Assembly (NCBI GenBank): GCA_003696125.1
Contig: RFHZ01000358.1
Coordinates: 1 to 7,843, forward strand
Reading direction: 5' to 3'
Origin: Nitrospinota bacterium
Lineage (GTDB): Bacteria > Tectomicrobia > Entotheonellia > J063
Length of the DNA stretch: 7,843 nt
The position numbers and the translations under genes are program-made. Shown one piece after another: positions 1-7,816 of the stretch. Numbering within the stretch: the first letter of the stretch is position 1; every line of letters starts with the position of its first letter. The notes beneath the pieces were generated by a model. That model had not been told where the DNA came from. It made no database searches and worked only from the letters and a program-made list of their open reading frames with translations.

Positions 1-320
1 CAGACGACATTGAGGGCGGTTACCGGCCTGCCCCCCATCGCGTACACGTCGCTCAAGGCATTGGCCGCGGCGATCTGGCCGTACGTATAGGGATCATCCA
101 CGATCGGGGTGAAGAAGTCGATCGTCTGCACCAGGGCGAGATCGTCTCGTACCTTATAGATACCTGCATCGTCGGCCGTGCTGATGTCGACGAGCAGGTT
201 GGGATCATTCTGTAGGGGCAAATCTTGCAGCGCCTTGCCCAGCACCGCCGGGCTCATCTTCGACGCTCAGCCCGCACACGCGACCATGCTGGTCAAACGC
301 CAGCGGTCTTGCTTTCGCAT
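1..320 (-). CDS. selD: Selenide, water dikinase SelD, selenocysteine form, N-terminal part
   Basis: SelD makes selenophosphate from selenide and ATP; this is the selenium donor for selenocysteine and selenouridine. Reading from ATG at 320 gives 106 codons before the window edge, open except for one TGA at codon 18 (269-267). The reading CAG-U-ASK (15-21) aligns with E. coli SelD GAG-C17-GCK20: the UGA sits exactly at catalytic Cys17 and Lys21 matches Lys20. Family positions continue unbroken past the TGA: DDAGIY (50-55), [12 protein letters not shown] (66-77) and [16 protein letters not shown] (84-99), with Asp51, Asp68 and Asp91 in the metal/ATP-binding positions. The second cysteine of the E. 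coli motif is Ser20 here. GGAG at 330-327 is 6 bases before the ATG. I infer a functional selenoprotein, not a broken gene, because conservation is equal on both sides of the UGA and a SECIS-like hairpin follows. The C-terminal two thirds lie outside the window. Confidence 0.93.
229..269 (-). promoter_or_regulatory. Bacterial SECIS-like element after the selD UGA
   Basis: In minus-strand RNA the UGA (269-267) is followed 13 nt later by a hairpin. GCCCGG (253-248) pairs with CUGGGC (242-237) in six pairs including one G-U, and the loop is CGGUG (247-243). The loop starts 19 nt after the UGA and has G at its second position. Both fit the usual bacterial SECIS pattern: in-frame, just downstream, apical loop roughly 16-37 nt away, early loop G for SelB. 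A lower helix AGCG (267-264) with CGCU (232-229) would close the element next to the UGA. The hairpin lies in coding sequence, as expected for bacteria. Folding was done by eye. Confidence 0.75.
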
Positions 321-380
321 AGGCTACTCCTGCCTGCTGATACAGCCACCATCTTCGATTGGGTAACGGATACTGCCTGT

Positions 381-556: not shown

Positions 557-1537
557 ATGAGCAGTGTCGGAATCATCGCCAATCCCGAGTCGGGAAGAGA
601 CATCCGCCGCCTGGTGGCCCATGGCTCTATCTTCGACAACTACGAAAAGGCCAACATCGTGCGTCGGGTGCTGTTGGGACTGGAAGCGGTCGGGGTGGAG
701 CAGGTCTGGCTGATGCCGGACGCCTTTGGCATCGGGCAACGGGCCCTTGACGGACTCCGGCTCCGGCTCAGGGTCTCCCTGCTCCCGATGCCCACCACCT
801 TTACCGCTGCCGATTCGCACCTGGCCACGTGCCTGATGGCAGAGAGGGGAGTGGGGTGCATCATCACCCTGGGAGGTGATGGGACCAACCGCATCGTGGC
901 CAAGGCCAGGAGCGCTGTCCCCCTCCTCCCCATTTCTACCGGGACGAACAACGTCTTTCCCCGCATGATCGAGGGGACCGTTGCCGGGCTGGCTGCCGGC
1001 CTGGTGGCGCGAGGACTTGCCCCAGAAGCGGTGGATAGTGTCCCCTGCCTGGAGATACGGCGGGAGCGGGGTCCAGAGGATATGGCGCTGATCGATGCTG
1101 CCGTGTACGACGAGCCGTTCGTGGCGGCACGAGCCCTTTGGGACATGCACAAGCTCAAAGCCGTTGTCCTGGCCAGGGTAGAGCCCGGCAGCATCGGCCT
1201 CTCCTCCATCGGAGCCCATCTGCTGGCGCACGACCAGGAGGAGAAGGGACTCTATATCCGTACCGGGAGCGGGGGACGGCAGGTGCTGGCCCCGGTGGCC
1301 CCCGGCCTGGTGCAGAGCGTACCGGTCAGCGAGTATCGTATCCTGTGTCCAGGAGAGACGGTGGTCATGGGGCAGTCCCGGCCCGCCGTTCTGGCCCTGG
1401 ATGGAGAACGGGAGATCGAACTCCGGGCCGGAGAGCGGGTCTGGGTGCGCCTGAGCGCTGCCGGACCGCGTGTGGTCGATGTACGGAAAGCGATCACCGC
1501 TGCGGCAGGTGCCGGTGTCTTCCTGCGGTCCGACTAA
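557..1537 (+). CDS. AcoX-like / ATP-NAD kinase-fold protein
   Basis: This 326-residue protein has the NAD kinase/diacylglycerol kinase-type nucleotide-binding core. IANPESGRDIRR (7-18) is the AcoX-type N-terminal loop, GGDGTNR (106-112) is the hallmark nucleotide-binding motif, and STGTNNVFP (127-135) is the second conserved segment. LDGERE (281-286) near the end resembles the C-terminal DG element of NAD kinase-fold proteins. Length and motifs fit the AcoX family, named from acetoin-degradation operons, where its substrate has not been established to my knowledge. No acetoin dehydrogenase genes are present here; the gene has its own promoter and stands alone, so a role in acetoin use is not supported by context. 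It is longer than, and distinct from, canonical NadK. GAGGAG (537-542) is 14 bases before the ATG, a long spacing, but no in-frame start lies closer. Its stop is two bases from that of the convergent phosphodiesterase gene. Confidence 0.85.
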   Translation: MSSVGIIANPESGRDIRRLVAHGSIFDNYEKANIVRRVLLGLEAVGVEQVWLMPDAFGIGQRALDGLRLRLRVSLLPMPTTFTAADSHLATCLMAERGVGCIITLGGDGTNRIVAKARSAVPLLPISTGTNNVFPRMIEGTVAGLAAGLVARGLAPEAVDSVPCLEIRRERGPEDMALIDAAVYDEPFVAARALWDMHKLKAVVLARVEPGSIGLSSIGAHLLAHDQEEKGLYIRTGSGGRQVLAPVAPGLVQSVPVSEYRILCPGETVVMGQSRPAVLALDGEREIELRAGERVWVRLSAAGPRVVDVRKAITAAAGAGVFLRSD

Positions 1538-6141: not shown

Positions 6142-6852
6142 TTGGAAGAGAAGAAGAAATCGGTCTATCGAGAGTATATCGAGTCCATCGTCATCGCCGT
6201 TGTCCTGGCCCTGTTGATCCGCACCTTTGTGGTGCAGGCCTTCAAGATCCCCTCCGGCTCCATGATCCCCACCCTCCTCATCGGCGATCACATCCTGGTC
6301 AACAAGTTTGCCTACGGGGTGAAGGTTCCCTTTACCGATTACCGGTTCCACTTCTTCGGCCTGCTGGATACCGTTCCCCAGCGAGGGGACATCATCGTCT
6401 TCCTCTTCCCCCAGGACCCTTCCCGTGATTTCATCAAACGGGTGATCGGCCTGCCTAACGAGCAGGTCGAGATCCGTGATAAACGGGTATACATCAACGG
6501 GGAACTGCTGGAAGAACCGTATGCGATCTATGAAGACACGACCATCCAGCCCAAAGATCTCTCCCCCCGTGACAACTACGGCCCCGTTATCGTGCCGGCC
6601 GGTCACCTCTTCATGATGGGGGATAACCGGGATAACAGCATGGACAGCCGCTTCTGGGGATTTCTGGATATCCGGAAGATCAAAGGGAAGGCCTTCATGG
6701 TGTACTGGTCCTGGAACGGGAGCAAACCGGTTCGCCAGGCCTGCTACAACCTGACCCGATCCTTCCCCTGGCTTGTCAGAGCTCCTGCAGCCTGGTCCTG
6801 TCAGATCGTCGAACGGATCCGCTGGGATCGGATCGGGAAACTGCTGCATTAG
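6142..6852 (+). CDS. lepB: Signal peptidase I
   Basis: LepB cuts signal peptides from exported proteins on the outer face of the cytoplasmic membrane using a Ser/Lys dyad. This 236-residue protein has one N-terminal membrane helix (about 14-34), then SGSMIPTL (38-45) with nucleophile Ser40, FIKRVIGLP (97-105) with general base Lys100, and box E GDNRDNSMDSRFWG (160-173). The sequence MVYWSW (186-191) and the terminal RWDRIGKLLH (227-236) are the usual family ending. A connecting segment of about 35 residues (192-226) separates them. The start is TTG at 6142: an in-frame TAG at 6133-6135 blocks extension, AAAGGAG (6124-6130) lies 11 bases upstream, and the next start would remove most of the membrane helix. 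The last 77 bases overlap the convergent rsmA gene. It is probably cotranscribed with larE and the TRASH protein. Confidence 0.95.
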   Translation: MEEKKKSVYREYIESIVIAVVLALLIRTFVVQAFKIPSGSMIPTLLIGDHILVNKFAYGVKVPFTDYRFHFFGLLDTVPQRGDIIVFLFPQDPSRDFIKRVIGLPNEQVEIRDKRVYINGELLEEPYAIYEDTTIQPKDLSPRDNYGPVIVPAGHLFMMGDNRDNSMDSRFWGFLDIRKIKGKAFMVYWSWNGSKPVRQACYNLTRSFPWLVRAPAAWSCQIVERIRWDRIGKLLH

Positions 6853-7651: not shown

Positions 7652-7816
7652 TAATGAGTAACGAGTGATGAGGACTGAGGACTGAGGACTGAGTAATGAG
7701 TGATGAGTAATGAGTAATGAGGGATAAGTAATGAGTAATGAGTAATGAGTGATGAGTAATGAGTAATGAGTGATGAGTAATGAGTAATGAGTAACGAGTA
7801 ACGAGTGATGAGTAAG
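7652..7816. repeat. Heptanucleotide tandem repeat tract (GAGTAAT family)
   Basis: From 7656 to 7809 there are 22 uninterrupted, in-phase 7-mers. GAGTAAT occurs 9 times, GAGTGAT 5, GAGTAAC 3, GAGGACT 3 (consecutive, 7670-7690), GAGGGAT 1 and AAGTAAT 1. A partial unit TAAT (7652-7655) leads in, and GAGTAAG (7810-7816) ends the tract. Within it, GAGTGAT-GAGTAAT-GAGTAAT recurs as a 21-bp higher-order unit at 7698, 7747 and 7768. There are no spacers, so it is not CRISPR. It resembles the short tandemly repeated repetitive sequences with 7-bp units known from cyanobacteria and other genomes. It ends three bases from the rsmA ATG. Confidence 0.97.

Follow-up and report, generated by a model that had tools for sequence, protein, structure and literature searches.

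Of all bacterial selenoproteins, the selenocysteine (Sec)-containing selenophosphate synthetase, Sec-SelD, is one of the two with the widest distribution (PMC1794560, PMC13188914), and the evolutionary history and the bSECIS elements of the Sec-containing synthetases (Sec-SPS) have been treated before (PMC4561486). Also the change from Sec to Cys in SelD and the occurrence of SelD fusions are already described. Bacterial selD genes commonly have a UGA codon at the catalytic site, as has been known for a long time, and the gene discussed here is a further example. With a probability of approximately 97%, it represents the 5'-terminal third of an unremarkable bacterial selD gene of the Sec form, encoding selenophosphate synthetase, in which UGA specifies selenocysteine at codon 18.

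The selD fragment and its in-frame UGA

The window, i.e., the whole stretch of DNA that was analysed, corresponds to an entire contig of 7843 bp (G000:C684). Its minus strand contains, from 320 to 1, the first 106 codons of selD, starting with an ATG at 320-318 that is preceded at 6 nt by the ribosome-binding-site-like sequence listed in Table 1. Since the end of the contig is the end of the window, selD is truncated by the contig boundary and not by mutation. Translation of this segment yields a sole in-frame TGA at codon 18, and the frame is otherwise open to the contig end. A preliminary description of this DNA had located the one TGA in the frame from ATG 320 at the position of the catalytic Cys17 of E. 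coli SelD, and both the translation and the alignment with a solved SelD chain agree with this assignment: U18 is aligned to C17 of chain 3u0o, gap-free through the loop. This chain is that of E. coli SelD. The active-site motif in the N-terminal loop, AGUASK, contains Sec in the (Sec/Cys)-xxK pattern typical of the SelD family.

Strong conservation of SelD on both sides of the UGA, which had also been claimed, is evident from the profile search. The fragment matches positions 1-102 of the 311 positions of TIGR00476 and exceeds the cut-off of 125 bits with only a third of the SelD protein present. The AIRS N domain (PF00586) is partly present; the remainder of the complete AIRS N and C domains lies beyond the contig. 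The missing 3' part of selD is absent from every other contig of the assembly (G000); hence, the C-terminal two thirds lie outside the assembly, and they may carry further lesions. That there would be no further in-frame stop holds up to the contig end, and the complete genes of two relatives discussed below contain only this UGA.

Several other features of the window are worth recording. An ATP-NAD kinase-like protein without NCBIfam match is encoded at 557-1537 (+), divergently from selD. The convergent lepB (+) and ksgA (-) genes overlap at their ends by 77 bp (6776-6852), and a 7 bp tandem repeat, TAATGAG, is present in ~23 copies immediately upstream of the ksgA start (7652-7815).

Table 1. 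Coordinates of the selD-related features in the window
Feature	Position	Strand	Basis
selD, first 106 codons	1..320	-	TIGR00476, 136-143 bits; 76%/75% identity to selD of G003/G004 over 104 residues
bSECIS-like hairpin GCCCGGC-GGU-GCUGGGC, within the coding sequence	237..253	-	predicted fold; synonymous-recoding test
Sec-type UGA codon, at the position of Cys17 in E. coli SelD	267..269	-	translation; 111-sequence alignment; 3u0o alignment
AGGAG, ribosome-binding-site-like, before ATG 320	327..331	-	read directly in the sequence

SelD homologues and the downstream hairpin

Homologues were collected from other whole genomes and 80 public contigs and aligned after reading through TGA. As the sample consists of the best matches to the protein of the window and the best profile matches, it is no census. 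Of the 111 aligned sequences, window sequence included, 90 have UGA at this column and the remaining 21 have Cys; no other residue occurs. For the fragment, the proposed comparison with Sec-containing SelD proteins turned out as anticipated. Such alternation of Sec and Cys among homologues, combined with homology at both sides of the UGA, is characteristic of bacterial selenoproteins.

Four genomes of the same class are particularly informative. Two of them, G003 and G004, contain a full-length selD gene in which a UGA at the site equivalent to codon 18 is the only stop within the gene. The other two, G001 and G002, encode SelD without UGA (locus L047 and G002:C1:1729909-1730826, respectively) in frames that are 775 and 853 codons long, and selB and tRNA-Sec are nevertheless present. 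Of these two proteins, the active-site residue was read in G001 only; it is a Cys, in the motif CGGCGAK. By their long frames, these proteins resemble the NADH-SPS fusions described previously (PMC4561486). The SelD of the window belongs to the same family as those of G001 and G002, and selB and tRNA-Sec occur in all three genomes, whereas the SelD proteins of G001 and G002 are long-frame proteins without UGA. It is conceivable, though rather doubtful, that SelD in this poorly sampled class alternates between two types, one with Sec and one with Cys in a long fused frame, with no loss of Sec decoding. If so, the class could reveal what keeps or removes the dependence of SelD on itself.

Downstream of the UGA, a stem-loop with G at the start of the loop, as in bSECIS elements, is predicted within the coding sequence (Table 1). 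Its apical loop, GGU, begins at a distance of 21 nt from the UGA. When the peptide was recoded synonymously 1000 times, just five of the variants folded as stably as the hairpin of the window (z -3.3). When compared with dinucleotide shuffles, the hairpin was unexceptional (z between -1.3 and +0.5), and those of G003 and G004 were unexceptional in the synonymous-recoding test. When paired by eye, both relatives show an equivalently placed hairpin that retains GGU in the apical loop and has changed pairs in the stem, which is GCCCC/GGGGC in G003 and has an inner A-U pair in G004 where the window has G-C. By a rule demanding at least 4 pairs, a loop start at 14-37 nt, and G in the first two loop positions, a bSECIS-like fold was predicted for 77 of the 90 UGA forms vs. 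9 of the 21 Cys forms.

Genes for selenocysteine decoding in the genome

The preliminary description had deduced that the organism decodes Sec and that selA, selB, and selC should be found elsewhere in the genome. All three, the set expected for a bacterial selenoprotein, were indeed detected in the assembly: selA (560 bits) and selB (386 bits) are adjacent on one contig with a GC content of 58.7%, and tRNA-Sec was identified with 74 bits, above the cut-off, and with anticodon TCA (ARAGORN). The assembly (4.18 Mb in 990 contigs) is an estimated 94.8% complete with 8% contamination. Because of this contamination, the co-residence of the selA, selB, and selC contigs with the window rests on binning, on their similar GC content (56-59% vs. 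58.9% for the window), and on the fact that all four same-class genomes also possess selB and tRNA-Sec. A second selD, which in an intact Cys form would have spoken against the earlier proposal, was not found in the assembly, where other AIR-synthase-like matches remained far below the cut-off. No plasmid match was found.

The genome contains at least two Sec-type UGA genes beyond selD, both short and GrdB-like, with in-frame TGA in the contexts LVPA-U-PLCHQSVGL and LTPA-U-ALCNRSVGL. These genes (L152, G000:C960:13077-13433; L154, G000:C937:3814-4383) contain a UxxC motif, and their products are probable selenoproteins of the same genome. A paralogue on contig C905 (L153) has Ser in place of Sec. 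The idea that SelD is the sole selenoprotein, with Sec decoding mainly serving itself, was rejected in view of the two GrdB-like genes. Another GrdB-like gene, in G004 (L145, on C34), has a TGA at PAT-U-GTG; its homologue in the present genome (L146, on G000:C138) ends at the contig edge before the position of the TGA.

Other candidate destinations of selenium were sought in the same genome. There is no mnmH/ybbB gene for a role in tRNA selenouridine, and no TGA in any TIGR01591 match that would indicate a Sec-containing formate dehydrogenase; in the two formate dehydrogenases whose sequences were read, the catalytic residue is Cys. Also FlpD contains no TGA, and neither does any of the nine AhpC-TSA matches, as a Sec peroxiredoxin would. 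Several AhpC-TSA (peroxiredoxin-like) genes in G003 and G004 have one in-frame TGA each, suggesting a larger selenoproteome in those genomes.

Alternative readings and relation to known systems

Could translation simply begin downstream of the UGA? Gene callers would choose ATG 257, a start past the UGA being one of the outcomes foreseen in the preliminary description, and the listing of open reading frames indeed gives 3..257. The product would be a SelD without its N-terminal catalytic loop and hence without the catalytic residue, whereas conservation reaches upstream to ATG 320, with its RBS-like sequence; such a start is very improbable. Even a little less credible is a dead gene, in which a Cys codon was lost by a chance nonsense mutation. 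A single base change suffices to convert TGC or TGT into TGA, and selD is incomplete in the assembly. However, the UGA sits at the one column where 90 of the 111 sequences have it, same-class relatives carry it in complete genes, and a pseudogene would leave the Sec machinery and the other UGA-containing selenoprotein genes without any selD to serve them. The least plausible explanation by far, to the point of being negligible, is a genome-wide reassignment of TGA to a standard amino acid, for instance Trp, in the manner of genetic codes 4 or 25. It would account for a frame that remains open through a TGA, but of seven window genes tested, three have TGA as their stop codon, which refutes this reading, and the position is that of a catalytic Cys/Sec rather than of Trp or Gly. 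The genome, moreover, contains a canonical tRNA-Sec and SelB. As TGA ends ordinary genes of the window, recoding applies and not a changed code.

In the Sec reading of codon 18, the UGA would be decoded by SelB and tRNA-Sec, both encoded elsewhere in the genome, and SelB would be directed to it by the bSECIS hairpin that follows shortly after the codon, within selD itself. Sec would thus be placed at the active site, in the flexible N-terminal loop of SelD. The enzyme would then convert selenide and ATP into selenophosphate, which SelA would use to produce Sec-tRNA-Sec. The circle would thereby be closed, with SelD required for its own synthesis. Control of selD expression by selenium is implied by this wiring; autoregulation would be a logical consequence of the enzyme's need for Sec.

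The observations have implications chiefly for annotation, as standard gene callers would start selD past its catalytic residue, and they extend the known range of Sec-decoding bacteria by a single lineage from a sparsely sampled class. Compared with E. coli SelD (Cys17, 3u0o), the protein belongs to the same enzyme family, with a Sec-type UGA here where E. coli has Cys. The present copy ends at a contig edge and, among the features compared, does not differ from known Sec-containing SelD (TIGR00476; Zhang et al., 2006, PMC1794560; Mariotti et al., 2015, PMC4561486): they share the catalytic UGA, the UxxK motif, the bSECIS-like hairpin, and the selA, selB, and selC genes.
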